Shown: one piece after another, positions 23,524-63,792 of the stretch | Layout: every line of letters begins with the position of its first letter | Numbering within the stretch: the stretch's first letter is position 1 | Source: Bacillota bacterium | GTDB lineage: Bacteria > Bacillota > Negativicutes > Sporomusales > Sporomusaceae | DNA: 64,000 nt | NCBI GenBank assembly: GCA_017889705.1 | Contig: JAGGAB010000007.1 | Location: 1 to 64,000, forward strand | Direction of reading: 5' to 3' | Position numbers and translations under genes: made by a program | The notes under the pieces: generated by a model | Told to the model about the DNA's origin: nothing | Databases searched by the model: none | What the model saw: only the letters and a program-made list of their open reading frames with translations

Positions 23524-23640
23524 TGTAAAGTACTCCTTTTTAGAGTGTAATTATTAAGATATAATAATAGTTTATCGCACAAACCACAGTTCAGTCAAGG
23601 ATTAATACATGGGAAACAGGTGAACCCTGTGCTTGGGCGA

Positions 23641-23698
23641 TAAAGTAGACTTATCTTCAGGTAGGGGGAACCTCATCTGAAGATAAGTCTCAGGATAA
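23641..23698. repeat. Type-A hairpin repeat, copy 1
   Basis: A perfect 14-bp stem AGACTTATCTTCAG (23647-23660) / CTGAAGATAAGTCT (23677-23690), flanked by ATAAAGT and CAGGATAAT. The same flanks and stem layout, with changed but still paired bases, recur at 31465-31524, 31639-31770 and 49872-49960. It lies in the 420-base gap between the DedA gene and the amidohydrolase gene. Confidence 0.8.
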
Positions 23699-31464: not shown

Positions 31465-31524
31465 GTTTATCCTGAGACTAACCTTCAGAGGGGGGGGGGC
31501 CACCTGAAGGTTAGTCTGCTTTAT
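31465..31524. repeat. Type-A hairpin repeat, copy 2 (with a run of ten G)
   Basis: Stem AGACTAACCTTCAG (31475-31488) / CTGAAGGTTAGTCT (31504-31517), perfect over 14 bp, loop beginning AGGGG and containing about ten consecutive G. Flanks TTTATCCTG and CTTTAT match the other copies. Relative to the copy at 23641, stem bases differ in both arms together, keeping pairing. Confidence 0.8.
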
Positions 31525-31534
31525 GCATTCCCAG

Positions 31535-31597
31535 ATGTAGAAAAACCTGGCTCACATGTAGAAAATTGCAGCTCAAATGTAGAAAAATGCATAAATG
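31535..31597 (+). repeat. Three 21-bp direct repeats ahead of the hyf operon
   Basis: ATGTAGAAAA starts at 31535, 31556 and 31577, an exact period of 21 bases, with the last two preceded by CTCAC or CTCAA. The spacing equals two helical turns, as in arrays of protein-binding sites. They lie about 210-270 bases upstream of the first hydrogenase gene. Confidence 0.7.
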
Positions 31598-31638
31598 TAT
31601 ATTTTTACAATACACATAGCTCTAAAAGTATGATACAA

Positions 31639-31770
31639 TTTATCCTGAGATTAAGCCGCTCTAAGACTCCTGCTTCTTCAAGTGGGAGTCTTAGAGCGGC
31701 TAAGTCCCTGGATGAGGGCGACTAACCTTCGGATGGGATTAAACCCCACCTGAAGATAAGTCTACTTTAT
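31639..31770. repeat. Composite type-A/type-B hairpin repeat, copy 3
   Basis: TTTATCCTGAG is followed by hairpin B, a perfect 17-bp stem (31654-31670 and 31685-31701, starting AGCCGCTCTAAG). A linker (TAAGTCCCTGGATGAGGG) and hairpin A (GACTAACCTTCGGATGGG to ACCTGAAGATAAGTC) come next, ending TACTTTAT. The same A+B composite lies reversed at 49872-50043. Together with the repeats at 31465 and 31535 it fills the 430-base gap before the hyf genes. Confidence 0.8.
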
Positions 31771-41151: not shown

Positions 41152-41471
41152 GAAGGGCCGTTGCAAGAGCGATATATTATCGCTGGCGATGGCCTCTTTT
41201 TTTCTTTTTATGAAAAATCCAGTTTGTGTCGTTAATAAAATCTAGGAAACAAGGGGTACGTGTTACTTTTGGCATTGCCCCCAAAGTAACCAAAAGGTCT
41301 AGGCCTGAAGCCTCCACGCTAACCTGTTCCACTAGAGATTTGCTTTCATAGCTATATGATAGAGTCTCCATTTCAATGCGCGGACCTGAAAATCCGGGCG
41401 ATATTCCTACAATCCGTAAACTCGCTGCGCTCAAACAGTACGGATTGCTTAACGGAATACCGCCCGGATTT
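41152..41471 (+). repeat. Dispersed composite palindromic repeat, copy 2
   Basis: Inverted relative to 85-332. In order: a terminator-like hairpin ending GGCGATGGCCTC plus T7 (about 41152-41208, serving ridA); GTTACTTTTGG/CCCAAAGTAAC hairpin (about 41261-41291), which pairs although its sequence differs from the matching hairpin in copy 1; the string GGTCTAGGCCTGAAGCCTCC; and the large hairpin with 18-bp arms AAATCCGGGCGATATTCC (41390-41407) and GGAATACCGCCCGGATTT (41454-41471). Open frames across this 540-base gap are judged non-coding. Confidence 0.78.
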
Positions 41472-46759: not shown

Positions 46760-46771
46760 GGAATATACAAA

Positions 46772-46996
46772 TCTGAAGAGGCAGAATAGTAAGCTTACTA
46801 TGACAGTTCAGAAAGTTGGCGGGTGTTGCGAGCCAATCTGGAAGATAGCTGAACTCACTGCTGAGGAGTAACTGCGAAATGGCAGTAGCAGTTGACGCAT
46901 GCCTGCGTTATTGGCAAAAAGTGGATGACTGTTGTCATCAAACAGGGTGGTACCGCGAGCATCTCGTCCCTGGCGTCAGCCACGGGACTTTTTTAG
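46772..46996 (+). ncRNA. T-box leader (leucine), with terminator
   Basis: The T-box sequence AGGGTGGTACCGCG is at 46944-46957. Upstream, the AGTA element of stem I (ATAGTAAGC near 46790) and GAACTC with the specifier codon CTC (46854-46856, Leu) can be placed. A terminator hairpin GTCCCTGGCGTCAGCC/ACGGGAC plus T6 is at 46966-46996. Uncharged tRNA-Leu should stabilise the antiterminator and allow leuS expression. Confidence 0.93.
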
Positions 46997-49552: not shown

Positions 49553-49870
49553 ATGCTTACTATTGCAAATGTAAATGAGTTTAATGAGGCTGTACTTAAG
49601 TCGGATAAACCTGCTCTAGTTGATTTTTGGGCACCTTGGTGCGGACCTTGCAAAATGGTTGCACCGGAAGTTGAGGCTGTAGCCAAAAACTTCGAGGGAC
49701 GGGCAGTGGTAGCTAAGGTTAATGTCGATGATAATCAAGACCTGGCCAGCCACTACAATGTTATGAGTATTCCTACGCTGATTATTTTCAAAGGCGGCAA
49801 TGAAGTCGGTCGCATTACCGGATATCGTCCGCAAAAAGATATTAACGACATGCTTGAAAAAGTACTATAA
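49553..49870 (+). CDS. trxA: Thioredoxin
   Basis: A 105-residue cytosolic thioredoxin with the active site FWAPWCGPCKMVAPEVE (partly WCGPC), the cis-Pro loop MSIPTLIIFKGG and normal length. It could supply electrons to the CcdA-TlpA system. It follows leuS by 41 bases, with its own RBS (GAGGAGG). Confidence 0.95.
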   Translation: MLTIANVNEFNEAVLKSDKPALVDFWAPWCGPCKMVAPEVEAVAKNFEGRAVVAKVNVDDNQDLASHYNVMSIPTLIIFKGGNEVGRITGYRPQKDINDMLEKVL

Positions 49871-49871
49871 A

Positions 49872-50043
49872 TGAGACTTGCTTCAGATGGGGTTTTAACC
49901 CCACCTGAAGTTTAGTCGAATTATCCAGGGACTTAGCCGTTCTTTACTCCCGCCTACAGAGGTCGGGAGTTCTAGAACGGGTTAGTCATCGGATAAAAAC
50001 AGGAACTCCCGAAAAAATCGGGAGTTCTGTTTTTTATCCGATG
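49872..50043. repeat. Composite hairpin repeat, copy 4, with terminator and 26-bp palindrome
   Basis: Hairpin A (GACTTGCTTCAGATGGGG / CCCCACCTGAAGTTTAGTC, 49874-49917), a linker TTATCCAGGGACTTAGCCG, and hairpin B (ACTCCCG / CGGGAGT core) reproduce the composite at 31639-31770 in the opposite orientation. A third hairpin follows with 26-base arms at 49987-50012 and 50018-50043 and a T6 run inside the 3' arm, which should terminate trxA. This accounts for the 235-base gap. Confidence 0.8.
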
Positions 50044-50105
50044 ACGCTTGTATTTATTTGGTGATATGTCATAATTAAAACTATCGGGGAAAGGAGAGAG
50101 AAAAT

Positions 50106-53028: not shown

Positions 53029-54018
53029 ATGATAATTTCATGGAATACCACCCAGCAGTGCAATATCAATTGTATCCATTGTTATCGTGATGCCGGTGCC
53101 AAACAAGCCGACGAGTTAAGTACTGCCGAAGGAAAGAAACTGCTTAGTGAGATTGCCAAAGCCGGTTTTAAGATTATGATATTAAGCGGCGGCGAGCCGC
53201 TGCTGCGACCGGATATTTATGAGCTTATAGCTCATGCCGCATCAGTAGGCTTGCGACCGGTGCTTGGCACTAACGGCATCTTATTTACTGAGGATGTGCC
53301 GGCACGATTAAAAGCAGCAGGACTGATGTGTGCCGGTATAAGCTTAGATAGCTGTGATGCTGACCGGCATGATAATTTCCGGGGTGTAAGAGGGGCTTGG
53401 CAGCAAACCATGGCTGGAATTAAAGCCTGTAGAGAAGCCGGGTTGCCGTTTCAGATTCATACAACTGTCACCACCTGGAATGAACAGGAAGTGACTGCTA
53501 TTACTGATTTGGCAGTTGAACTTGGTGCTGTTGCCCACCATATATTTTTCCTGGTGCCTGCAGGGCGAGGGAAAGATATTGAAGCAACAACACTAAAGAC
53601 CAGTCAATATGAAGAGTTATTGAATCGGATTATTGATAAGCAGGCAGTTGTTCCTATTGAGATTAAACCAACCTGTGCGCCGCAGTTTATGAGGATTGCC
53701 AAAGAAAGAGGAATACCTATGCGGTATACCCGCGGCTGTCTGGCCGGAACCTCATATTGTGTAATCCTGCCTAATGGTGATGTGCAGCCTTGTCCATATC
53801 TGCCGCTCAAAATCGGTAACGTAAGAGAAAAAAGTTTTGATGTTCTCTGGTCAGATAGCGAAGTGTTTAACAAGCTCCGTCACGAACCGCTTAAAGGCGG
53901 CTGCGGATCTTGTGGTTTTGACAGCTTATGCGGCGGCTGCCGTGCCAGAGCATACTATTATTCTGATGGCGATTATCTTGCGGAAGAACCCTGGTGTAAC
54001 CGGGGAAATCGAAAATAG
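53029..54018 (+). CDS. nirJ2: Radical SAM protein NirJ2 type
   Basis: A 329-residue radical SAM/SPASM enzyme starting five bases after NirJ1. The cluster motif is QCNINCIHCYRDAG, followed by SGGEPLLRPDIYELI, LGTNGILF and the C-terminal Cys set (CGSCGFDSLCGGCRARAYY, partly quoted). Tandem NirJ1/NirJ2 with siroheme decarboxylases make heme or d1-like products in other anaerobes. No ahbA/ahbB lies in this window. A terminator follows, before the hydrogenase genes. Confidence 0.8.
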   Translation: MIISWNTTQQCNINCIHCYRDAGAKQADELSTAEGKKLLSEIAKAGFKIMILSGGEPLLRPDIYELIAHAASVGLRPVLGTNGILFTEDVPARLKAAGLMCAGISLDSCDADRHDNFRGVRGAWQQTMAGIKACREAGLPFQIHTTVTTWNEQEVTAITDLAVELGAVAHHIFFLVPAGRGKDIEATTLKTSQYEELLNRIIDKQAVVPIEIKPTCAPQFMRIAKERGIPMRYTRGCLAGTSYCVILPNGDVQPCPYLPLKIGNVREKSFDVLWSDSEVFNKLRHEPLKGGCGSCGFDSLCGGCRARAYYYSDGDYLAEEPWCNRGNRK

Positions 54019-54030
54019 AATTAGTTGAGA

Positions 54031-54070
54031 AGAGGGAATGGGTGTTAAACCAGTATTCCCTCTTTTTTTT
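54031..54070 (+). terminator. Terminator after nirJ2
   Basis: AGAGGGAAT (54031-54039) pairs with ATTCCCTCT (54055-54063), followed by eight T. Confidence 0.88.
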
Positions 54071-54143
54071 CCTAAGAACAGGATAGTGACACCATTGCTT
54101 TGCGCTTATCTTAAAGCTCGGTGTAAGGCGTAGTTTCTTTATA
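54071..54143 (+). repeat. Leader-type repeat family 2, copy 1 (shortened)
   Basis: CCTAAGAACAGGATAGTGACACC, then AAAGCTCGGTGTAAGGCGTAGTTTCTTTATA, follow the consensus of copies 2-4 (CAGGATAAGGGCAACATCG; AAGCTCGGTGCAAGCC; GTTTTCTTTATA) but without the AGAAAGT hairpin. It lies upstream of the hydrogenase operon. Confidence 0.6.
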
Positions 54144-54186
54144 GGCATAATCCTTTAAAAGAATGGCAATCTAATAGGAGGATCTT

Positions 54187-54285
54187 TTGGAAACGTCTGG
54201 GAGTCATAATAATTATTTTTACATTTCAGAAAAATCCAAGAGGAAAGTAATAAAAAAAACAGAATACCAGATTAAGGATTATTAA
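54187..54285 (+). CDS. Possible 32-residue small ORF in the hydrogenase leader
   Basis: TTG 54187 sits five bases after a perfect AGGAGG (54176-54181) and opens a 32-codon frame ending TAA 54283-54285, 28 bases before the hydrogenase ATG. The peptide is basic and polar (start METSGSHNNYFYISEK, end YQIKDY). The RBS is the only support. It could be a regulatory leader peptide or a relic. Confidence 0.35.
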   Translation: METSGSHNNYFYISEKSKRKVIKKTEYQIKDY

Positions 54286-54313
54286 ACAGTAGTTACTTTT
54301 AAGGGGGGCGACT

Positions 54314-55441
54314 ATGGAAAAGCGGGATACTCTTTGGGAGTTGTTTCAGAAAAAGAATATCAGTAGGCGTGATTTTCTCAAAACATGTGTAGCTTTGACC
54401 AGTATTATGGGTTTATCTACAGACCTATTACCGCAAGTCATAGAAGCGGCTGAGAAAAAGCCGCTGCTACCGGTAATTTGGCTGCATGGTCATGAGTGTA
54501 CTGGCTGTGACGAAAGCTTTATCCGGTCCCAGTCACCGTTAACTTCAGACCTAGTACTCAATATGATTGCTCTTGAATATATGGATGTGCTGGCTGCCGC
54601 CGCCGGTGAGCCGTTAGAACACCATCTGGAAGAGACTATAGCCAAATATAACGGGCAGTATCTTCTTATTTTTGAAGGTGCTGTTCCGGAAGCGGAAAAC
54701 GGCATTTACTGTATGGTGGGCGGTAAGCCCATTATCGAGACCTTAAAACATGTGGCTAAGGGTGCAGCCGCCATTATTGAAAACGGATCTTGCGCTGCCT
54801 GGGGAGGAATTCAGGCTGCCAGGCCCAACCCTACCAAGTCTGTGTCTGTTAGCGAAATAATCAGCGGTAAGCCTATTATCAAAGTTCCTGGGTGTCCACC
54901 CATTCCCGAAGTACTGACAGGGACAGTTATGCATTATGTTTTATTTGGACAATTGCCGCCTGTCGACAACCAAGGGCGGCCCAAGCAGTTTTTTGGAAAT
55001 CGTATCCATGATACTTGTTATCGGCGGCCTTTCTTCGATTCCGGTATGTTTGTTGAAAAATTTGATGATATGGGCAGTAAAGCAGGCTGGTGCCTGTATA
55101 AAGTAGGCTGCCGGGGGCCGGAAGCCTATAACTCCTGTGGCAATATGCGCTGGTGGAATGGCATGAGTTATCCCATCCAGTCAGGAGCGCCCTGTGTGGC
55201 TTGTGCCAGTAAAAACTTCTGGGATAATGATCCGTTCTATGAACGTCTGCCTAATATTCCGGTGCCGAACACCATTGCCGATGCCGACAAAGTCGGAGCT
55301 GTTCTGGCTGGTGTAACTACGGCCGGAGTAGTTGCTCATGGCATTGCATCCTATGTTCAGCACAAAATGCATCAGTCAAAGGCGGAAAAAGAGTTGGCAG
55401 ACTCTGATGAACACAAGCCTGAGCCTGGGCAAAATGAATAG
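54314..55441 (+). CDS. hyaA: Membrane-bound uptake [NiFe] hydrogenase small subunit
   Basis: A 375-residue iron-sulfur subunit. The twin-arginine signal is SRRDFLKTC at residues 17-25, so the folded dimer is exported by Tat. Cluster ligands: HECTGCDESFIR (proximal), GSCAAWGG, PGCPPIPEV, and the late set CYRRPFF, GWCLYKVGC, CGNMRWW and GAPCVACAS. A C-terminal anchor (about 330-355, VGAVLAGVTTAGVVAHGI) holds it to the membrane near cytochrome b. First gene of hyaABCD; GGGGGG precedes the ATG. Confidence 0.93.
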   Translation: MEKRDTLWELFQKKNISRRDFLKTCVALTSIMGLSTDLLPQVIEAAEKKPLLPVIWLHGHECTGCDESFIRSQSPLTSDLVLNMIALEYMDVLAAAAGEPLEHHLEETIAKYNGQYLLIFEGAVPEAENGIYCMVGGKPIIETLKHVAKGAAAIIENGSCAAWGGIQAARPNPTKSVSVSEIISGKPIIKVPGCPPIPEVLTGTVMHYVLFGQLPPVDNQGRPKQFFGNRIHDTCYRRPFFDSGMFVEKFDDMGSKAGWCLYKVGCRGPEAYNSCGNMRWWNGMSYPIQSGAPCVACASKNFWDNDPFYERLPNIPVPNTIADADKVGAVLAGVTTAGVVAHGIASYVQHKMHQSKAEKELADSDEHKPEPGQNE

Positions 55442-55462
55442 TGGATGAGGAGGACGGCATAG

Positions 55463-57355
55463 ATGAAACGAATTGTTGTTGACCCAATCAATCGAATTGA
55501 GGGCCATCTGCGGGTTGAAATCAAAGTTGATGAAGCAACCGGTAAAGTCGAAGATGCGTTATCAAGCGGCACTGCCTGGCGAGGTATTGAGTTAGTATTA
55601 AAAGATCGTGATCCGCGGGATGCATGGATGTTTGCCCAACGCATTTGCGGAGTGTGCACAACTGTGCATGCATTAGGTTGTCTGCGCGCTGTCGAAGATG
55701 CACTGGGTATTGAAATTCCTAAGAATGCCAATTATATTCGCAATATAATTGCTGCGTCCCAAGCGGTTCATGACCATACTGTGCATTTTTATCATCTGCA
55801 TGCCTTAGACTGGGTAAGCCCGGTGGCTGCGCTTAAAGCCGACCCGGCGGCGACTGCTGCGCTTCAAAATACCGTACTGGAAAAATACAGTCTTAAGTTT
55901 GAAGGGCCTATTGGCTTTGCGACCAGTGCTTATCCCAAAGAGTTTCCTAAGGCGACTACCGCTTATTTCAGAGAAATCCAAAATAAAGTAAAGGCTATTG
56001 TGGAAAGTGGGCAGCTTGGCATATTTGCCGGTCATTACTGGGATCATCCTGATTATAATGTATTGCCGCCAGAAGCTCATCTTATGGCTGTATCGCATTA
56101 TTTGAATATGCTTGACCGCCAGCGCGAAATAGTTATTCCACATGTAATTTTTGGTGGAAAAAATCCGCATCCGCATTATATAGTGGGCGGCATGCCCTGC
56201 TCTATCTCGATGAATGATATGAATGCGCCGATTAATACTGAACGCTTGGCGCTTGTAGACACTTCCGTAAACTTAAGTATTGATCTTGTTAATAATTTTT
56301 ATATTCCCGACCTGCTGGTTATTGGTGATTTGTTTGTCAAGGCCGGTTATGTTGACGGCGGCGGCTTAGCCGGTCAACGGGTATTGTCTTTTGGTGATTT
56401 CCCTGAAGACAAATACAGCGGAACTTCCAATGGCGATTATTTTAAAAATTTATTGATCCGTTCTAACGGTGTGGTTGAAAACTTTGCCGGCGGCGTTGAT
56501 AAAGCTAAGTTTTATCCGCTAGAAGGCAAAGATTTAAGTGATCCTAATGTTTTGGCCGAAGGTGTTGATCATGCCTGGTATACTTACACCGAAAAAGGCA
56601 AGGATCTTCACCCGTGGAGTGGTGTAACTAATCCTCAGTATACTGAGCCTAAGGAAGGCACTAAAACTAACTGGAAATACCTTAATGAGGACGGCAAGTA
56701 TTCCTGGGTTAAAACACCTAAGCATAACGGCAAGATGGCTGAAGTCGGGCCTTTGGCAAAATATATTATTGTTTACACTAAGGTGAAACAAGGTATTATA
56801 GGGCAGCCTACCTGGGCGGAAAAAATGATTGTCGACCAAATCGATGCTGTATCCAAATTGCTGAATTTGCCGCCGGAAAAATGGCTTTTATCTACGGTTG
56901 GTCGTACCGCAGCACGGGCGTTAGACGCACAACTGCACGCTTATATCAGTAAATATTTTCTGGATAAACTGATTAACAGTATTAAAGCTGGCGACACAAC
57001 AGTAGCCAATACGGCTTACTGGAATCCATCAAGTTGGCCTAAGGAGGCCAAAGGCGTTGGGTTACACGAAGCACCGCGTGGCGGACTTAGTCATTGGGTA
57101 ACAATTAAAAATGGCAAGATTGATAACTATCAGGCCATAGTACCTTCTACCTGGAATGCTTGTCCGCGGGACGATAAAGCCGGGCATGGAGCTTATGAAG
57201 CCAGCATGATTGAGACAAAGGTGAAGATTGCTGAAAAACCACTTGAGATACTCAGGGTGATTCATTCTTTCGATCCATGTCTTGCCTGTGCTACACATTT
57301 ATATGACAGTACTGGCAAAGAAATTGCGATAGTCCGCACAGACCCGTATTTATAG
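55463..57355 (+). CDS. hyaB: Uptake [NiFe] hydrogenase large subunit
   Basis: A 630-residue catalytic subunit. N-terminal Ni ligands are C62 and C65 (RICGVCTTVH) and C-terminal ones C606 and C609 in DPCLACATH. Maturation should cut after His612, removing 18 residues (start LYDSTGKEIA); the protease is encoded two genes downstream. INRIEGHLRVE near the start is also typical. With the Tat-exported small subunit it oxidises H2 outside the cytoplasmic membrane. Confidence 0.95.
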   Translation: MKRIVVDPINRIEGHLRVEIKVDEATGKVEDALSSGTAWRGIELVLKDRDPRDAWMFAQRICGVCTTVHALGCLRAVEDALGIEIPKNANYIRNIIAASQAVHDHTVHFYHLHALDWVSPVAALKADPAATAALQNTVLEKYSLKFEGPIGFATSAYPKEFPKATTAYFREIQNKVKAIVESGQLGIFAGHYWDHPDYNVLPPEAHLMAVSHYLNMLDRQREIVIPHVIFGGKNPHPHYIVGGMPCSISMNDMNAPINTERLALVDTSVNLSIDLVNNFYIPDLLVIGDLFVKAGYVDGGGLAGQRVLSFGDFPEDKYSGTSNGDYFKNLLIRSNGVVENFAGGVDKAKFYPLEGKDLSDPNVLAEGVDHAWYTYTEKGKDLHPWSGVTNPQYTEPKEGTKTNWKYLNEDGKYSWVKTPKHNGKMAEVGPLAKYIIVYTKVKQGIIGQPTWAEKMIVDQIDAVSKLLNLPPEKWLLSTVGRTAARALDAQLHAYISKYFLDKLINSIKAGDTTVANTAYWNPSSWPKEAKGVGLHEAPRGGLSHWVTIKNGKIDNYQAIVPSTWNACPRDDKAGHGAYEASMIETKVKIAEKPLEILRVIHSFDPCLACATHLYDSTGKEIAIVRTDPYL

Positions 57356-57375
57356 AGAAAAGGAGGATACCGGTC

Positions 57376-58098
57376 ATGCGTCAAGGAGCAATGAAACCAT
57401 ATTACGTCTTTAGCCCATGGATACGGGTTTTCCACTGGGTTATGGTAATATGTGTATTTACCTTATTTATTACCGGGCTATATATCGGTAACCCCTTTTT
57501 CCTGGGTACGCAGGGAGTAGAGCCTACATTTGCAGTTAATCATGTTTTTTCAATGGAGACCATCCGCTATATCCATTTTATTGCTGCGTATATATTGGTT
57601 ATTTCCTTTATCCCGCGTATTTACGGTTTTTTAATTAATCCAGGAGACAGGCTGCTGCCAAAAGTCTGGACAAAGCTGTATTGGACAGGGATTATGGATA
57701 CCCAGCTGCATTACATGTTTTTGCGTGGAAAACATCGTCCCTATTTGCGAAACTCACTGGCCAGATCAGGATATCTGGCGGTATATTTCATGTTCTTAAT
57801 TGAAATCATAACGGGTTTTGCCATGTACTATATGGTTGAGCCTAACCGAACATTAGCGCATATATTTGGCCCCTTTAACAACTGGCTGATCAACGAATAT
57901 GTCGTGCACCTGATTCATCATTTTGTTGCCTGGTTTATTATCTTGTTTGTTATTGTGCACATATATATGGCGATTAGAGCTGATTTTACGGAAAAAGGCG
58001 GCGAAATATCGGCTATGTTCTCTGGCGTCAAATATATGGAGGAAGACCCCGATGATTTGGGGGATATAATCGATACTAAGAAGTGTAAGGTGAAATAG
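57376..58098 (+). CDS. hyaC: Hydrogenase cytochrome b subunit (Ni/Fe-hydrogenase b-type)
   Basis: A 240-residue membrane protein with four segments and His residues in VFHWVMVICVF, IHFIAAYIL, VHLIHHFVAWF and FVIVHIYMAIRADF, consistent with two b hemes. It takes electrons from the small subunit to the quinone pool. ATG 57376 with GGAGG, 20 bases after hyaB. It creates a need for heme, of interest given NirJ1/NirJ2 upstream. Confidence 0.92.
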   Translation: MRQGAMKPYYVFSPWIRVFHWVMVICVFTLFITGLYIGNPFFLGTQGVEPTFAVNHVFSMETIRYIHFIAAYILVISFIPRIYGFLINPGDRLLPKVWTKLYWTGIMDTQLHYMFLRGKHRPYLRNSLARSGYLAVYFMFLIEIITGFAMYYMVEPNRTLAHIFGPFNNWLINEYVVHLIHHFVAWFIILFVIVHIYMAIRADFTEKGGEISAMFSGVKYMEEDPDDLGDIIDTKKCKVK

Positions 58099-58108
58099 GA
58101 GATTATAC

Positions 58109-58600
58109 ATGGAAAAGGTTGTTGTTCTTGGTGTCGGCAATATCTTAATGCAGGATGAAGGCTTTGGTGTCCGGACTATTGAAGAACTTAGCCGGCGCTA
58201 TGTGTTTCCTGACAATGTAGAGGTGCTTGATGGCGGTACACTGGGAATGGAGCTACTGCGTTTTATTGACGGGGCAGATCGGTTGCTGATAATTGACGCT
58301 GTCAATGGAGATGGGCAGCCCGGGACCTGTTATCAGTTTAGCAATGAAGAGGTTAAATCTTACTTTAAGAAAAAAGTGTCGATGCATGAATTAGGCATTC
58401 AGGATGTGCTGACAGCCCTGGAACTGTTGGAAAAGCCGGTAAATGATGTTGTTATTTTGGGGGTTCAGCCGGCTGTTATTGATGTTGGCCTTGAACTAAG
58501 TCCGGTTGTTCAGGCAACTGTGCCGCCCACCGTGGAAAGCGTTATTGACGTTTTGGATTCCTGGGGAATAAAGGGAGACTTAAATCAGACGGCGTTTTAA
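58109..58600 (+). CDS. hyaD: Hydrogenase maturation protease (HyaD/HybD family)
   Basis: A 163-residue endopeptidase that removes the C-terminal extension of HyaB after Ni insertion. GVGNILMQDEGFGVRTIEEL holds the first metal-sensing acidic residue, DAVNGDGQPGTCYQF the second, and SMHELGIQDVLTALELL the His. ATG 58109 with AGGAG. Last gene of the operon. Its substrate extension is present in HyaB and absent in HyfG. Confidence 0.93.
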   Translation: MEKVVVLGVGNILMQDEGFGVRTIEELSRRYVFPDNVEVLDGGTLGMELLRFIDGADRLLIIDAVNGDGQPGTCYQFSNEEVKSYFKKKVSMHELGIQDVLTALELLEKPVNDVVILGVQPAVIDVGLELSPVVQATVPPTVESVIDVLDSWGIKGDLNQTAF

Positions 58601-58696
58601 CGCCGTCTGATTTGTAGGCGGAATTCTTCAATAGATTAACCGCTCCTCTGGCCGCGCAGGGGGAGTTAACAGATAAACTACTTACCGCATACGTTA

Positions 58697-58860
58697 TCCT
58701 AACAGAAAGTATAACTTTCTTAAAAACAGGATAAGGGCAACATCGGCTTGTGCTTTCTTTAGTCTACCAGAATTTATAACAAAATTCTGTTGACATAAGA
58801 ACGACTAGGGATTCTGCCGGCGTCCTGAGGGACTTGGCACAAGCCAAGTCTTTTCTTATA
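58697..58860 (+). repeat. Leader-type repeat family 2, copy 2 (long form)
   Basis: AGAAAGT/ACTTTCT hairpin, CAGGATAAGGGCAACATCG and GGCTTGTGC are followed about 80 bases later by the exactly complementary GCACAAGCC and TTTTCTTATA. The intervening part has its own hairpin (CAGAATTT/AAATTCTG). It ends 17 bases before the next gene, so it overlaps that gene's leader. Confidence 0.72.
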
Positions 58861-58877
58861 ATGCGGGAGGTGGGGGA

Positions 58878-59180
58878 ATGAATTACCATGTTTTGGGCGT
58901 TATCCTTACCCTGAATGAAGAGCCAGAAGTATTTGTGGCTGAAGATTACCGGTATAATCAGGAGAAAGCCTGTCATGAGTTATTAATTACGATTTTTGGC
59001 CAAAAACTTTGGGTTGACACTAGATGTGTGAAGCTAAAAAAAATAACAGGCGCTGCCTTTTGCTGGAAAGAATATGAGCAAGGACAATATATAGAACTCA
59101 ACCAAGGCGACGTTGTCTGTTCCGAATGCGGGTGGTGGAGTTGCCATGTTTGTCATTCGTGTCAGTGCAACAAACCATGA
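58878..59180 (+). CDS. Cys-rich small protein, probable metal binder, unknown family
   Basis: A 100-residue protein starting at ATG 58878 after GGGAGGTGGGGG. The first 80 residues look like a small alpha/beta domain (VILTLNEEPEVFVAEDY, LLITIFGQKLWVD). The tail has Cys at 81, 84, 89, 92, 95 and 97 (CSECGWWSCHVCHSCQC), suitable for zinc or an iron-sulfur cluster. It follows the hydrogenase operon but is separated by a repeat, so a link to hydrogenase is only suggested by position. No family recognised. Confidence 0.65.
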   Translation: MNYHVLGVILTLNEEPEVFVAEDYRYNQEKACHELLITIFGQKLWVDTRCVKLKKITGAAFCWKEYEQGQYIELNQGDVVCSECGWWSCHVCHSCQCNKP

Positions 59181-59206
59181 AATGTAATAGTGATAATGGC
59201 AAACAA

Positions 59207-59235
59207 TTTACAATGTCAGCAGGAAAAAACATAAT
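59207..59235 (+). promoter_or_regulatory. Possible promoter for aroH
   Basis: TTTACA (59207-59212), a 17-base spacer and CATAAT (59230-59235). Confidence 0.45.
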
Positions 59236-59290
59236 TTGTGCGTATATTGTATACTGAAGCTTGATTAATTCTTTCTCGGGAGTGATGATT

Positions 59291-59650
59291 ATGCTACGCG
59301 GTATTCGCGGCGCAACAACTGTTACAGCTAATAATCGTGAGGAAATTTTTACACGCGTAGCAGAGCTGCTAGAAATAATAGAGCGGGAAAATGGGCTAAA
59401 TACCGAGGAGATTGGTGCGGTCATATTTAGTTCAACGCCTGATTTAAACGCAGCTTTTCCGGCGGCCGGTGCAAGACAGGTAGGCTGGACGTATGTGCCG
59501 CTATTTGGGACGCAGGAAATAGAATGTCCTGAGGCGCCACCGCTTTGTATTCGGGTGCTGATTTTATGGAATACCGATTTAGGACAGCAGGATATCAAAC
59601 ATGTTTATTTGCATGATGCAGTTGTTTTGCGTCAGGATATTAAGCTATAG
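59291..59650 (+). CDS. aroH: Chorismate mutase, AroH type
   Basis: A 119-residue monofunctional chorismate mutase converting chorismate to prephenate for Phe/Tyr synthesis. LRGIRGATTVTANNREEIF starts it with the active-site Arg, and VPLFGTQEIECPE and CIRVLILWNT cover the other conserved residues. ATG 59291 has CGGGAGTGA upstream; an in-frame start at 59261 lacks one. It is monocistronic, away from other aromatic genes. Confidence 0.92.
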   Translation: MLRGIRGATTVTANNREEIFTRVAELLEIIERENGLNTEEIGAVIFSSTPDLNAAFPAAGARQVGWTYVPLFGTQEIECPEAPPLCIRVLILWNTDLGQQDIKHVYLHDAVVLRQDIKL

Positions 59651-59679
59651 AGTGCTGAAATGCTGGTTTTCGGTAAACT

Positions 59680-59713
59680 AAAGTCTGCTTTGCAGGTTTG
59701 CAAAGTAGACTTT
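59680..59713. repeat. 15-bp hairpin after aroH
   Basis: AAAGTCTGCTTTGCA (59680-59694) can pair with the complement at 59699-59713 with one wobble. Its AAAGTAGACTTT core recalls the AGTCTACTTT end of the type-A repeats. It may serve as a weak terminator. Confidence 0.55.
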
Positions 59714-59737
59714 GCTATTGGGGGATACTTATTTTTG

Positions 59738-59836
59738 TCCTAATAGAAAGTATAACTTTCTTAAAAGCAGGATAAGGGCAACATCGACTTGCACTGTCGC
59801 TGAAAAGCTCGGTGCAAGCCGTGTTTTCTTTATAGA
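59738..59836 (+). repeat. Leader-type repeat family 2, copy 3
   Basis: CCTAATAGAAAGTATAACTT with the AGAAAGT/ACTTTCT hairpin, CAGGATAAGGGCAACATCG, ACTTGCAC, AAGCTCG, GTGCAAGCC and GTTTTCTTTATA. The stem CTTGCAC/GTGCAAG corresponds to GGCTTGTGC/GCACAAGCC in copy 2, with paired changes. It ends 63 bases before the glycosyltransferase start. Confidence 0.75.
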
Positions 59837-59899
59837 AATATTTGCAATAACCTTTTGGTAATGTAATAATTATAGAGATGAAAGGAGGACGAGTACTAG

Positions 59900-60859
59900 A
59901 TGGGGCTTGAAAAGCAGCTGGTATCTATTGTTGTGCCAGTATACAATGAGCAAGAAAATATTGACAGCTTTTATCAGGAAGTTGTTAAGCATATGGAGCC
60001 AATGAAATATGATTTTGAACTTATTTTTGTCGACGATGGTTCAAAGGATGCTACTCCGCTGATTTTAGAACGCTTGGCTCATAGCGATAAACGGGTGAGG
60101 GCACTTATCTTGGCTCGCAACTTTGGTCATCAGATAGCTTTGACCTGCGGGCTGGATCATGCTGAGGGGCATGCTGTAATTACCATGGATGGCGATATGC
60201 AGCACCCGCCTGAGATGCTTCCGGCATTAATTGCCCGATGGGAAGCGGGTTTTCAAGTTGTCCAGACTGTTAGAATTAATACCGAAGGTGTATCTTGGTT
60301 TAAAAGTTTTACATCAGGTATGTTTTATAAACTAATGAATGCTATGTCAAATATTGAGGTTGCTGAGGGCGGTTCTGATTTTAGGCTGCTGGACAAGCAG
60401 GTAGTGGATAGTTTCCGGCGTTTTCGGGAACGGGCCAGATTTATTCGCGGAATGATTAGTGCGATTGGTTACAGGCAGACTAAGCTTGAATTTATTGCGC
60501 CCAAGCGCTTTGCCGGACATTCCAAGTTCTCTTTAAAAAGGATGTTGCATTTTGCGCTTGATGGCATTACTGCCTATTCTAAACTGCCACTTCGTTTTGC
60601 CTTTTACCTGGGAATTATTTTGGGTTTTGGCAGCATTGGTCTGACATTGCATGTTCTCTATATAAAATTTTTGACTTCGGAAGCTGTTCCCGGCTGGGCC
60701 ACAATAACTGCAAGTATTTTGCTGCTTGGCGGGATGCAATTGGCGGGAATTGGCATTATCGGTGAATATGTGGGGCGGATATTTGAGGAAGTAAAACAGC
60801 GTCCGCTGTATTGGTTAGCAGCTGAAATCAGCCAACAGAAAGAGCGAAATAAAATGTGA
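59900..60859 (+). CDS. GtrB/ArnC-like family 2 glycosyltransferase
   Basis: A 319-residue membrane enzyme. The catalytic domain (1-225) has VPVYNEQENID, IFVDDGSKDATP and TMDGDMQHPPE with the DxD-type site, and LARNFGHQIALT. Two membrane segments follow (about 230-255 and 270-295). Such enzymes charge undecaprenyl phosphate with a sugar for later transfer outside. No acceptor or flippase genes adjoin it. ATG behind AAAGGAGGA. Confidence 0.88.
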   Translation: MGLEKQLVSIVVPVYNEQENIDSFYQEVVKHMEPMKYDFELIFVDDGSKDATPLILERLAHSDKRVRALILARNFGHQIALTCGLDHAEGHAVITMDGDMQHPPEMLPALIARWEAGFQVVQTVRINTEGVSWFKSFTSGMFYKLMNAMSNIEVAEGGSDFRLLDKQVVDSFRRFRERARFIRGMISAIGYRQTKLEFIAPKRFAGHSKFSLKRMLHFALDGITAYSKLPLRFAFYLGIILGFGSIGLTLHVLYIKFLTSEAVPGWATITASILLLGGMQLAGIGIIGEYVGRIFEEVKQRPLYWLAAEISQQKERNKM

Positions 60860-60952
60860 TTTTCTGTTCTAATAGAGAACTCTGCTTAATCAATGTAAAA
60901 AAAACGCGAGTTTAGGGAGGATTTTTGCTAATTAGGCAGAATAAGTAAAGTT

Positions 60953-61082
60953 GAGCGTTGTAGAAAGCCGAATCCAGCTCAGGTACGGGGGAACCAATTT
61001 ATAGGGGTGAAATTTGGAAAACGCAAGTTTTTTGAGTAGGGTGCCTGCAACCCTAACCCGTCAGCTAACCTCGGAGGCCAGT
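60953..61082 (+). ncRNA. c-di-AMP riboswitch (ydaO/yuaA type)
   Basis: Conserved blocks in order: AGCCGAATCC, GGTACGGGGGAACCAATTT, AGGGGTGAAAT, TAGGGTGCCTGCAACCCTA, CCCGTCAGCTAACCTCGG and AGGC. These match the ydaO consensus, and the next gene is an NlpC/P60 wall hydrolase, a frequent target. The aptamer ends right at the RBS, with no terminator in between, which suggests control of translation initiation. Binding of c-di-AMP normally turns expression off. Confidence 0.92.
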
Positions 61083-61098
61083 GAGAGGAGAAACCAAT

Positions 61099-61764
61099 TT
61101 GCATAAGTTTTTCGGGTTTGTTGTCGCTCTATGCCTCTTTTGCGGAACTGCTGCTTCAGTTCAGGCAGCTACATATGAGGCAGGCGATCGGGGCGAAGAT
61201 GTGGCCGCTATTCAAGCCCAGCTTAATAATCTGGGTTTTAATGCCGGTGCAGCCGATGGGGTTTTTGGAAATGCAACAGCAGATGCTGTTAAATCTTTTC
61301 AAAAATCGCGCGGCCTTGAATCTGATGGTGTGATTGGAACCGAAACCTATCGTGCGCTGATGGGCAGGGATATTCCAGCAAGCCGGGATTCTTCCACAGC
61401 TTCAGTTCGACGTATTGTTCAAACGGCCCTGAGGTACACTGGTGTACCGTACGTTTTTGGTGGGACAAGCCCAGGCGGCTTTGATTGCTCCGGTTATACC
61501 CGGTATGTTTTTGCTCAGAGCGGCATTTATTTACCGCGTATGGCTGACGAGCAATTTGAAGTTGGACGGCATGTGTCCTACGGTAATCTTCAGCCTGGAG
61601 ATTTGGTGTTTTTTAGCACTTATACTTCAGGGGCATCACACAGCGGTATCTATATTGGAGATGGTAGATTTATCAGTGCTACATCTAGTAGCGGTGTAAG
61701 AGTCGATAGTCTGGATAGTGGCTACTGGGGTCCACGCTACATTGGCGCTCGCCGGGTGATGTAA
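61099..61764 (+). CDS. Secreted peptidoglycan hydrolase: PG-binding domain plus NlpC/P60
   Basis: A 221-residue exported protein, start TTG 61099 because GAGAGGAG (61083-61090) stands eight bases before it; a GTG at 61081 would lie in the riboswitch and ahead of the RBS. Signal peptide about 1-23, peptidoglycan-binding domain about 25-85 (GDRGEDVAAIQAQLNNLGF, partly), and NlpC/P60 domain about 100-221 with catalytic Cys in FDCSGYT and His in ASHSGIYIGDG. It probably cuts stem peptides (D-Glu to diamino acid). Regulated by c-di-AMP, linking wall turnover to osmotic state. Confidence 0.92.
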   Translation: MHKFFGFVVALCLFCGTAASVQAATYEAGDRGEDVAAIQAQLNNLGFNAGAADGVFGNATADAVKSFQKSRGLESDGVIGTETYRALMGRDIPASRDSSTASVRRIVQTALRYTGVPYVFGGTSPGGFDCSGYTRYVFAQSGIYLPRMADEQFEVGRHVSYGNLQPGDLVFFSTYTSGASHSGIYIGDGRFISATSSSGVRVDSLDSGYWGPRYIGARRVM

Positions 61765-61772
61765 ACTAAGAG

Positions 61773-61801
61773 GGGAAGGCGTTTTGCCTTCCCGTTTTTA
61801 T
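61773..61801 (+). terminator. Terminator after the NlpC/P60 gene
   Basis: A perfect 8-bp stem GGGAAGGC/GCCTTCCC followed by GTTTTTATTT. Confidence 0.92.
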
Positions 61802-61803
61802 TT

Positions 61804-61900
61804 CCTTAACAGAAAGTAAAACTTTCTTAAAAGCAGGATACGGGTAACAGCGGCTTCCGTCATTACCCAAAATACCGGCATAAGTCGAGCTTTTTTATAC
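61804..61900 (+). repeat. Leader-type repeat family 2, copy 4
   Basis: CCTTAACAGAAAGTAAAACT with the AGAAAGT/ACTTTCT hairpin, GCAGGATACGGGTAACAGCG, GGCTTCCG, and the end CGGCATAAGTCGAGCTTTTTTA follow the other copies, more diverged in the second stem. The rest of the gap to 62053 shows no further element. Confidence 0.68.
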
Positions 61901-62052
61901 TTTCCGCCTACCTTGTAATGGTACCAGGCTGTACCTAAAAAGAAGCAGAGTTTTGTCATGGTGAAGCAGCGTAAAGGGCTTGTATTTTATCAGGATAACT
62001 GAGACAATAGAAGAGATTGAGTTAAGCCGAATTGTAGTGGAGATAGTATTTT

Positions 62053-63792
62053 ATGTTTAGTTTTTATTGGCAAAAATTTATAATTCCATTTTGGCTACTG
62101 GCATTAACAGCAATAGTGTGTTTTATTATTGCAAGTTTAGCCGGTCTGGCGGCACCGTTGGTAGTTAAGTTGCTGATTGATGATGCCCTGGGCGCAAACA
62201 GCATGAAGTTTCTACATTTTATTACTGCCAGTATTGCAATTCTATATCTTTTCCGAGGAGTATTCTCCTATTTCTATGGCTACTGTATGGCTAAAGCCGG
62301 TAATAAAATGCTGGCCAAACTCCGTCAGGACATGTTCAGTAAGCTGCAGTCATTAGATTATGCTTATTTTATGAAGACTCCATCAGGTGAGCTGATCTCG
62401 CTGTTTACTAATGATTTGCTGTTTATTCAGCAGGCTGTTACTGTTGGTATTCCTGATGTTATCGTGGAATCCATAAACCTGTTGGCAATTATGGCAATCA
62501 TGATTTATTTTGACTGGCGGCTGGCTATGGTTACTTTTGCTACCTTGCCGTTCATTATTGTTGCTATCAGTTTTTTTAACAGCAAAATTGGGGCATTAGG
62601 AGTGCTTGTGGATCATGCGCTAGCCAAAGTAACGGCTATTATTCAACAATCCTTGGTTTCTGTTATTGTTGTGCAGAGTTATGTCCGTGAAGACTATGAA
62701 TACAAAAAATTTAGCGACAAGATTCAGCAGGCTGCCAATGATTTGTTAAAAGCGCAGCGCTTAAGTGCCATTTTGGTGTCTTTGGTGGAGTTTTTAGCTG
62801 CTGTGGGGTTAACCATAATTATATGGTACGGCGGTCGGGAGGTTATCAATGGTCACCTGAGTATCGGCGGGATGTTTGCTTTTCTTATTTATATTATTAA
62901 TGTACCAATGCCTATACGTAAAATCAGCCAGGCTTTGACTCATTTAAAACTTGGTGTGGTAGCCTGGGGACGTATCAATAGTTTGCTTAATGAACAAACA
63001 CCGACTGTTGTAGAGGGTGATTTACAACTGCCTCATACTGACGGTGTAGTAGAGTTTAAAGATGTGTCCTTTGCATACTGGCAAGGCAAGCCGGTGCTGG
63101 AGGCTATTAATATTCTTGCGCGGCCAAATGAGATTATCGCTATTGTTGGTCCGAGCGGGGCAGGGAAATCCTCCTTTGCTAATTTGCTATTACGCTTTTA
63201 TGATCCGGATACCGGGGCTATATATTTGGACGGTCTGGATATCAGGCGCCTTAAGATTGCTGAGCTGCGGCAGCATATAGGCTTTATTCAACAAGAGCCG
63301 ATTTTGTTTAATACTACCGTTTTGGAAAATATTCGTTATGGCAGGCCTGATGCTACTAAAGACCAGATTGAACAAGCTGCTCGCCTGGCTGATGCCTATG
63401 ATTTCATTATGAATTTGCCGCAAGGATTTGACACTATAGTAGGAGAATTAGGAGGGAAGTTGTCTGGTGGACAAAGGCAACGCATTGCTGTTGCCAGGGC
63501 TATTATTACTGAGCCGGCTATATTGCTGCTGGACGAACCAACTGCTGCGCTGGATGCGCAGACGGAAAAACAGGTGATGGCAGCCATTAGACAAGCCGGA
63601 ACAGGCAGAACTACTTTTATTATTACACATCGAATGTCGACGATTATGGCCTCTGATCGGGTTGTGTATTTGACAGAGGGGCGAGTGGCTGAGATGGGCA
63701 CCCACCAGGAACTTATCGATAAAGGCGGGTTATATGCCCAGGCAGTCCGCTTTAGTGAAATTGAGATGAGTATAGACACAAATCATCTATAA
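62053..63792 (+). CDS. ABC exporter, fused membrane and ATPase domains (MsbA-like)
   Basis: A 579-residue half-transporter: six membrane segments in residues 1-300 and an ATPase domain in about 335-570. Walker A is GPSGAGKSSF, signature LSGGQRQR, Walker B ILLLDEPTAALD, and the H-loop ITHRMST. It forms a homodimer exporting lipids, drugs or lipid-linked compounds. In a diderm host a lipid A or glycolipid substrate is possible but not shown. ATG 62053 has a weak RBS (GTGGAGATAG). Confidence 0.9.
   Translation: MFSFYWQKFIIPFWLLALTAIVCFIIASLAGLAAPLVVKLLIDDALGANSMKFLHFITASIAILYLFRGVFSYFYGYCMAKAGNKMLAKLRQDMFSKLQSLDYAYFMKTPSGELISLFTNDLLFIQQAVTVGIPDVIVESINLLAIMAIMIYFDWRLAMVTFATLPFIIVAISFFNSKIGALGVLVDHALAKVTAIIQQSLVSVIVVQSYVREDYEYKKFSDKIQQAANDLLKAQRLSAILVSLVEFLAAVGLTIIIWYGGREVINGHLSIGGMFAFLIYIINVPMPIRKISQALTHLKLGVVAWGRINSLLNEQTPTVVEGDLQLPHTDGVVEFKDVSFAYWQGKPVLEAINILARPNEIIAIVGPSGAGKSSFANLLLRFYDPDTGAIYLDGLDIRRLKIAELRQHIGFIQQEPILFNTTVLENIRYGRPDATKDQIEQAARLADAYDFIMNLPQGFDTIVGELGGKLSGGQRQRIAVARAIITEPAILLLDEPTAALDAQTEKQVMAAIRQAGTGRTTFIITHRMSTIMASDRVVYLTEGRVAEMGTHQELIDKGGLYAQAVRFSEIEMSIDTNHL

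Follow-up and report, generated by a model that had tools for sequence, protein, structure and literature searches.

Four related copies of a short structured repeat lie within 8 kb of one stretch of Sporomusaceae DNA (positions 1 to 64,000 of contig JAGGAB010000007.1, GenBank assembly GCA_017889705.1; this whole 64,000-nucleotide stretch is called the window), and each stands on the plus strand in the gap before a plus-strand gene. The arrangement raises the question of whether the repeat is a cis-regulatory leader RNA or a mobile palindromic element that tolerates only leaders, the two readings offered by a first-pass annotation of the window. We confirmed the four copies at positions 54070-54141, 58697-58761, 59738-59832 and 61804-61897, together with an AGAAAGT/ACTTTCT hairpin in three of them, a shared CAGGATAAGGGCAAC linker (with variants in copies 1 and 4) and a right end of the TTTCTTTA type. 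The element is ~93 nt long with two hairpins and no gene, in the order YCCYRACAG-(hairpin 1)-TAAGGGCAAC-(hairpin 2)-TTTTCTTTA. The evidence supports well the view that it is a miniature, apparently non-autonomous mobile repeat, ordinary in kind and unusual in habit: it inserts exactly behind transcription terminators and chains onto itself. Below, family A denotes elements of the type complete in copy 3, and families B and C denote elements found chained with it.

A mobile repeat with exact empty sites

The repeat occurs far beyond chance. BLAST with copy 3 located 43 places in the window's own genome (G000), where 30 copies had a mean identity of 91%, and a covariance model built from 32 aligned copies (30 own-genome loci and two window copies) gave 82 matches there at E<=0.1, the best at 1e-21. 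Applied to relatives, the model matched 21/41 genomes (own genome included) at E<=0.001. At this threshold, with tighter filtering applied, the own genome had 75 matches and its eight congeners 7 to 104, making all nine members of the genus positive; outside the genus there were 17 in G011, of the same family, and more distantly 34 in G031, 14 in G033 and 1-4 in others. In G005, with the best 150 candidates scored, at least 147 matches reached E<=1e-4. A genome from another family, G021, has one closely similar copy (106.9 bits, locus L063) behind an apparent IMP dehydrogenase gene, and this lone Sporomusa-type copy possibly reflects horizontal transfer. A pattern scan of named genomes found the element in Sporomusa silvacetica DSM 10669, S. 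malonica DSM 5090 and a Bacillota metagenome-assembled genome.

Comparison of orthologous gaps revealed that the positions of the window copies are not shared. The hydrogenase region is syntenic in eight congeners (larger aligned pieces ~72-83% identical), and the element was absent from the window's place and orientation in 30/30 orthologous gaps. It was missing between the radical-SAM gene and hyaA (copy 1) in 7/7 congeners with both flanking genes, between hyaD and the gene for a Cys-rich protein (copy 2) in 7/8, the eighth (G005) having an independent inverted insertion, and between aroH and the glycosyltransferase gene (copy 3) in 8/8. In the gap between the P60 and ABC genes (copy 4), 7/7 congeners keep a terminator there without the element. 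One long gap in G003 was read only at its ends, and nhmmer reported neither family A nor family B at this locus (L111). Different other repeats sit in some of the orthologous gaps, and two congeners carry minus-strand elements within the hydrogenase operon, antisense to it and located between its hyaA and hyaD orthologues (families A and B in G006, L114:4501-4687; family B in G004, L112:4493-4606).

The junctions were examined at 13 insertions in S. silvacetica; searches of the close relatives G001 and G007 recovered the right flank of 12/13. Ten of the 13 insertions had a clean empty site in at least one close relative (L130, L133, L144, L146a, L148a, L149, L147, L131, L161 and L159), and at all ten the unit YCCYRACAG...TTTTCT(T/A)TA was inserted exactly, with nothing duplicated or lost (one base being ambiguous at L147). 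At L136 the left side differs in S. silvacetica, and L156 was not found in the relatives. The L158 site carries an old decayed copy in each relative, and in S. silvacetica a fresh copy immediately follows such an old one; G007, one of the two relatives, retains a decayed remnant at L159. These results show that the element is mobile and that it inserts exactly, in a fixed orientation, without duplication or deletion of the target site. We regard this mobility, together with the terminator association described below, as close to certain.

No gene-bearing long version of the element was recognised using left-end and right-end patterns in G000, G003 and G011. Compared by eye, 2/114 left ends and 13/129 right ends in these three genomes lacked a full-length model match; of the two left ends, L310 is a partial remnant and L309 a weak match, and the 13 right ends look truncated or internally deleted (130-160 nt upstream was read, as were the genes of L200). 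Hairpin 1 is missing from window copy 1, L192 and L308. At L191 (G003) and at L137 and L142 (S. silvacetica), the loop of hairpin 2 holds an extra stretch containing GATGGCATAGCAATTCGGCC, which is apparently a further nested repeat.

Terminators, tandems and gene context

The commonest shared context of the copies is a terminator on the 5′ side. Flanks were available for 78/82 own-genome matches, and the 67 with at least 60 bits were used, the 11 weaker ones being dropped. A hairpin with a T-tract ended at the insertion point in 48/67, against 2/67 at 150 nt upstream, 10/67 downstream and 3/67 with the right flank reversed. Shuffling the hairpin region lowered the score to a mean of 8.95/67, and the opposite strand of the same 50 nt scored 22/67, as expected of bidirectional hairpins. 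By eye, several of the 19 misses look like longer-loop terminators or tandem copies, and others clearly have no terminator. In the left flank T was found at -3 in 62/67 and at -2 in 61/67. For a related family in the single-contig genome G031, 25/27 unique left ends followed a terminator-like hairpin (controls 0-1), the 27 left ends being taken from the best matches among the best 40 of 131 candidates scored.

Head-to-tail tandems were observed in the own genome (three copies at 93-nt steps, C3), in S. silvacetica (L131) and in G031 (L304), and S. silvacetica also chains families A, B and C in one orientation. We infer that the right end of the element, hairpin 2 with TTTTCTTTA, is itself a terminator-like target, and the tandems fit such a right end because hairpin 2 and TTTTCTTTA resemble a terminator. 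Insertion behind terminators is probably near-neutral and would permit high copy number, which would explain how a genome carries a hundred or more copies at little cost. Through its copies, many genes gain additional 3′-end hairpins.

Gene context was assessed with a simple codon-usage gene caller of our own, which is crude, for 73 own-genome copies with at least 44 bits. The upstream gene was co-oriented with the element in 56/71 cases and the downstream gene in 55/70; where the upstream gene was co-oriented, the element started a median of 73.5 nt past its stop codon (50 copies). The element thus sits behind the upstream gene, and its link to the downstream gene is therefore mostly a by-product. 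At sites preceded by a terminator and a co-oriented gene, the following gene was co-oriented in 34/40 cases at elements versus 33/48 at control terminators (p=0.085; controls from the window and eight G003 stretches), and a weak preference for the orientation of the downstream gene may exist in addition. The claim that the repeat always precedes a plus-strand gene accordingly holds for the four window copies and fails genome-wide. Of the copies, 7/73 lie between convergent genes, and 15/70 downstream genes are opposed. As for the proposed mobile element, its mobility is borne out by the exact empty sites, and its restriction to leaders is not, since the copies lie mostly in trailers, behind terminators. 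In G003, 51/66 copies were co-oriented with the replication fork (the 10 weakest of 76 rows omitted; origin assumed near 0, turn placed at 2.25-2.30 Mb from GC skew), a bias entangled with gene-strand bias and unused as evidence.

These data bear directly on the idea of a cis-regulatory leader RNA acting on the downstream genes. All four window copies do precede a plus-strand gene, and hairpin pairing is kept between lineages (see below), a property equally expected of a transposition substrate. Against this, the position of the element is conserved in none of the 30 orthologous gaps, the genes downstream of the window copies are unrelated, the downstream gene is opposed in 15/70 own-genome cases, and in G006 and G004 copies within the hydrogenase operon are antisense to it. 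Moreover, no Rfam family matched the window copies at gathering score, and the own-genome alignment contained no double-sided pair change. The empty orthologous gaps and the gene context refute the leader RNA as the main explanation, and we give it almost no weight.

A second role for the host would be one acquired after insertion, in which elements of mobile origin are kept as backup terminators or 3′-end stabilisers. The terminator-like character of hairpin 2 with TTTTCTTTA and the median distance of 73.5 nt from the stop codon of the co-oriented upstream gene are compatible with such a role; the presence of the element nevertheless varies between close relatives, and copies decay in place (L158, L159). 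We consider host retention rather unlikely.

Hairpin pairing, a putative guide and candidate movers

A stem reported as changed on both sides proved to be an artefact: GGCTTGTGC/GCACAAGCC pairs the arms of two tandem elements, copy 2 and a family B element, and because it joins two different elements it provides no evidence of covariation. When covariation was assessed within each set, the own-genome alignment of 32 rows had no predicted pair changed on both sides, whereas among 21 diverse cross-species copies (alignment A4) 11/26 pairs had changes on both sides (shuffle mean 4.1, 0/500 as high; 2-8 when slid). The cross-species alignment was sequence-based, and the structure used to score it was specified by the analyst. 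In this set 94% of cells were paired in the inner stem of hairpin 1 and 88% in hairpin 2. Hairpin 1 is a perfect palindrome, of different sequence, in G011 (L064) and S. malonica.

The tetranucleotide TAAG separates the two hairpins. On its left it adjoins hairpin 1, the far foot of which marks the insertion point; on its right comes hairpin 2, the far foot of which runs into the TTTA right end. TAAG can pair both with the TTTR that precedes the insertion point and with TTTA at the end of the element itself. TAAG is invariant in the 21-copy alignment, a set that omits diverged copies including L071-L073 and L075-L079, of which L075 reads TAAC and L078 TAAT. In G031 all four left-flank bases pair with TAAG (G-T allowed) in 25/27 cases, compared with 0-2 at six slid positions, and 27/27 have A or G at position -1. 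In the own genome the left-flank tetramer pairs in 26/60 (0-15 when slid). One copy in G019 has TAAC together with GTTTA, not CTTTA, at its right end, a double change that is suggestive of guide pairing as a single case.

Such an arrangement recalls the IS200/IS605 transposons. Excerpts of PMC6006769 and PMC8266576 describe cleavage of single-stranded DNA set by a tetranucleotide guide 5′ of a hairpin, and attribute a like guide role to the GTAG motif in one system of repetitive extragenic palindromic (REP) sequences. The hairpin 2 end of our element has the matching layout, and duplication-free insertion fits. We propose that the element may move as single-stranded DNA through HUH/Y1 chemistry of the IS200/IS605 or RAYT kind, with the enzyme supplied in trans. 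By pairing with TTTR across hairpin 1 and TTTA across hairpin 2, TAAG would determine where both cleavages fall; the excised circle, joined as TTTA^YCCY, would then integrate at a fresh TTTR site lying exposed next to a terminator hairpin. We rate this guided single-strand mechanism as plausible, at a little under an even chance.

The best candidate for the mover would be an orphan group-1-like RAYT of the TnpA-Y1 subclass 2.1 type. A RAYT-size Y1 frame was present in 12/12 genomes with at least seven copies versus 11/29 others (p=0.00027, kinship uncorrected; counted by eye among the matches listed). G031 has one Y1 match. Its RAYT-like protein (L126:2013-2774) is 50% identical to one from the own genome (L119:1159-1917); both match Y1_Tnp, both score 70-75 bits against the NCBI REP transposase model, below its cut-off of 80, and their translations contain HVH/HIH and YxxxNP motifs. 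In the parts of PMC6006769 drawn on here, Y---NP is given as the class 2 signature, and subclass 2.1 genes, present in 14.9% of the strains of that study, are said to carry a C-terminal helix-turn-helix extension and to have no REP-like sequences nearby by automatic or manual search. The length and tail of the two proteins point to membership of subclass 2.1, and a C-terminal helix-turn-helix domain was not scored by Pfam in either. In G021, the genome with the lone copy, both of the Y1 matches listed are short fragments, and one is interrupted by a stop. Since carriers hold subclass 2.1-like proteins, what this RAYT group moves becomes directly testable. We put forward the RAYT as mover only tentatively; the explanation as a whole, a mobile element behind terminators with guided single-strand movement and a RAYT candidate, we judge probable.

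Several observations weigh against guided movement by a RAYT. Regarding the guide, pairing in the outer stem of hairpin 1 reaches just 59% of cells of the 21-copy set, and among the 67 own-genome copies TAAG is present in 51, variant in 9 and unreadable in 7. The -1 base is T, which cannot pair with TAAG, in 25/67 of these; family C has TTGA or TGGA in the TAAG position, a poor fit; and pairing of AA within a T-tract is partly expected anyway. IS200/IS605 elements, as far as PMC8266576 and PMC6006769 are excerpted here, have a guide 5′ of each hairpin, and hairpin 1 of our element is terminal with no guide before it. Regarding the enzyme, subclass 2.1 probably corresponds to the enzymes linked to terminal inverted repeats (PMC6006769, in part; also PMC3733652, in part). 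Neither nhmmer nor a motif scan found a family A or B element at any of 11 loci with RAYT-size Y1 genes. Numbers of Y1 matches and copies do not track each other (2 and 75 in G000, 8 and 7 in G007), and most of the carriers compared are congeners. The motif scan, which recovered 24/30 known own-genome loci and 22/22 G031 element loci, also found no element at 12 further Y1 loci, other Y1 genes, including the second of G000, lying outside the scan. A REPtron arrangement, sought at the RAYT loci by both methods, was not found.

The same mobile element could instead be moved by a different system, such as a recombinase of the tyrosine or serine type that acts on a circle, an integron-like system or one of a new kind. 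Any circle-type site-specific recombination would be consistent with exact duplication-free insertion, a fixed orientation and head-to-tail tandems. None of the examined Y1 genes is flanked by copies, and three genomes (G018, G026 and G027, 87-88% complete) lack a Y1 match but show weak R1 matches (best E 3e-6 to 4.4e-4). By contrast, Y1 enzymes make use of guide-like pairing and of two such hairpins, and we regard another enzyme as fairly unlikely.

A third possibility is a retro-mobile RNA resembling a short interspersed element, transcribed up to its own terminator and inserted by the reverse transcriptase (RT) of a group II intron, or another RT, that favours terminators. Group IIC introns also insert just behind intrinsic terminators, the element ends like a terminator transcript, and the truncated copies that lack hairpin 1 (window copy 1, L192, L308) would fit. 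On the other hand, G031 has no RT match, yet the best 40 of 131 candidates were scored there as copies; G007 has 15 RT matches and 7 copies; and no family A or B element was found in 30 RT loci. Nor was there a group II intron Rfam match in the window at gathering score, or at E<=10 over positions 53950-62100. Retro-mobility is improbable, and the RT-free G031 and the lack of elements in 30 RT loci disfavour an RT as the mover.

Returning to guided single-strand movement, the element invites comparison with several known systems. It shares with REP/REPIN sequences and their RAYTs a high-copy intergenic hairpin repeat with no transposase within, a tetranucleotide beside a hairpin, probable mobilisation in trans and RAYT-size Y1 genes in the main carriers. 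It differs in having TAAG and no GT[AG]G motif, in its two dissimilar hairpins in fixed order, arranged head-to-tail and not as inverted pairs, and in its seat behind terminators; 11 RAYT loci are without a copy. With IS200/IS605 elements and their non-autonomous derivatives it has in common exact duplication-free insertion on the 3′ side of a short T-rich site, a hairpin at each end and a guide-like tetranucleotide. It is unlike them in its ~93-nt size, with no transposase-bearing version recognised in G000, G003 and G011, in the terminal position of hairpin 1, in one putative guide serving both ends and in its terminator preference. Such derivatives include PATE-like elements. Group IIC introns share the position just behind intrinsic terminators, whereas our element is ~93 nt, has no ribozyme match and has abundant relatives in RT-match-free G031.

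Short, non-coding, multicopy and intergenic repeats also include miniature inverted-repeat transposable elements (MITEs) and BOX/RUP/EFAR-type repeats. Unlike MITEs, the element inserts without target duplication (10/13 sites resolved, none duplicated) and its two ends differ in sequence. The terminal inverted repeats associated with TIRYTs are likewise tied to REP-less tyrosine transposases, as described in part of PMC3733652; by that description they flank the transposase gene as inverted pairs, while our element flanks none of the genes examined. We recognised no description of a terminator-seated repeat in Negativicutes among the open-licence papers listed for these topics. Short mobile repeats are widespread in bacteria, and few of them are known to home to a functional signal.

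It is possible, as a more speculative extension, that orphan group-1 RAYTs (TnpA-Y1 subclass 2.1) mobilise in trans a whole superfamily of mini-elements with guides, which land at terminators by treating the hairpin and T-tract as equivalents of their own right end. If so, terminators would serve single-strand transposition generally as attachment sites, and a large group of RAYTs for which no REP partners are known would gain a substrate.

The window copies and neighbouring repeats

Gene names in the window are labels read from open reading frames, not from database searches. All features in this paragraph lie on the plus strand. Copy 1 (54070-54141 as read from the sequence; covariance model 54058-54141, 50.6 bits; nhmmer 54068-54141) has lost hairpin 1 through an internal deletion and abuts the T-tract of the terminator of the radical-SAM gene, a hairpin and T-tract placed by eye at ~54031-54069. 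Copy 2 (58697-58761; 74.2 bits, also found by nhmmer and by reading) is a family A element that lacks the right arm of hairpin 2, has GTTA as its left flank and has no terminator directly upstream. It is joined head-to-tail, without a gap, to a family B element (58762-58858, GTCTACC...ATAAGAACGAC...CTTTTCTTA, read as a unit from the sequence), a stretch that matches many congener sites at up to 98% identity. Copy 3 (59738-59832, 111.3 bits) is complete, carries its TAAG, the proposed guide, at 59773-59776, and lies ~20 nt past a terminator-like palindrome, behind TTATTTTTG. Copy 4 (61804-61897; model match 61804-61898, 82.5 bits) is diverged and abuts the terminator of the NlpC/P60-like gene, placed by eye at ~61770-61803. 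Only copies 1 and 4 of the window thus stand directly behind a terminator T-tract. RNA folding with flanks gave z-scores of -0.3, -3.4, -4.0 and -2.8 for copies 1 to 4, respectively. By rough arithmetic, from 82 copies in 5.0 Mb, four copies within 8 kb would be a few-percent event.

For annotation, copies of the element should not be mistaken for riboswitches. Separate from the copies, the window holds a c-di-AMP riboswitch (RF00379, 86 bits, 60956-61094) before the NlpC/P60-like gene (61081-61764), and a T-box leader (RF00230, 140.9 bits) at 46767-46974. Long inverted repeats occur 41 kb apart at 97-325 and 41174-41471, with arms of 44, 41 and 29 nt that are 90-98% complementary.

Finally, a family of larger two-hairpin repeats is present at 31467-31770, 23640-23698 and 49870-50045. 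Its members have the form TCC...GGA, with a linker TGAGGGCGAC or similar, a hairpin with CCACCTGAAGATAAGTC and a right end of CTACTTTA or CTCATTTA, and by eye they look like members of the same superfamily as the ~93-nt element. The repeat at 49870-50045, on the minus strand, is seemingly placed behind a terminator and TTTTTA.

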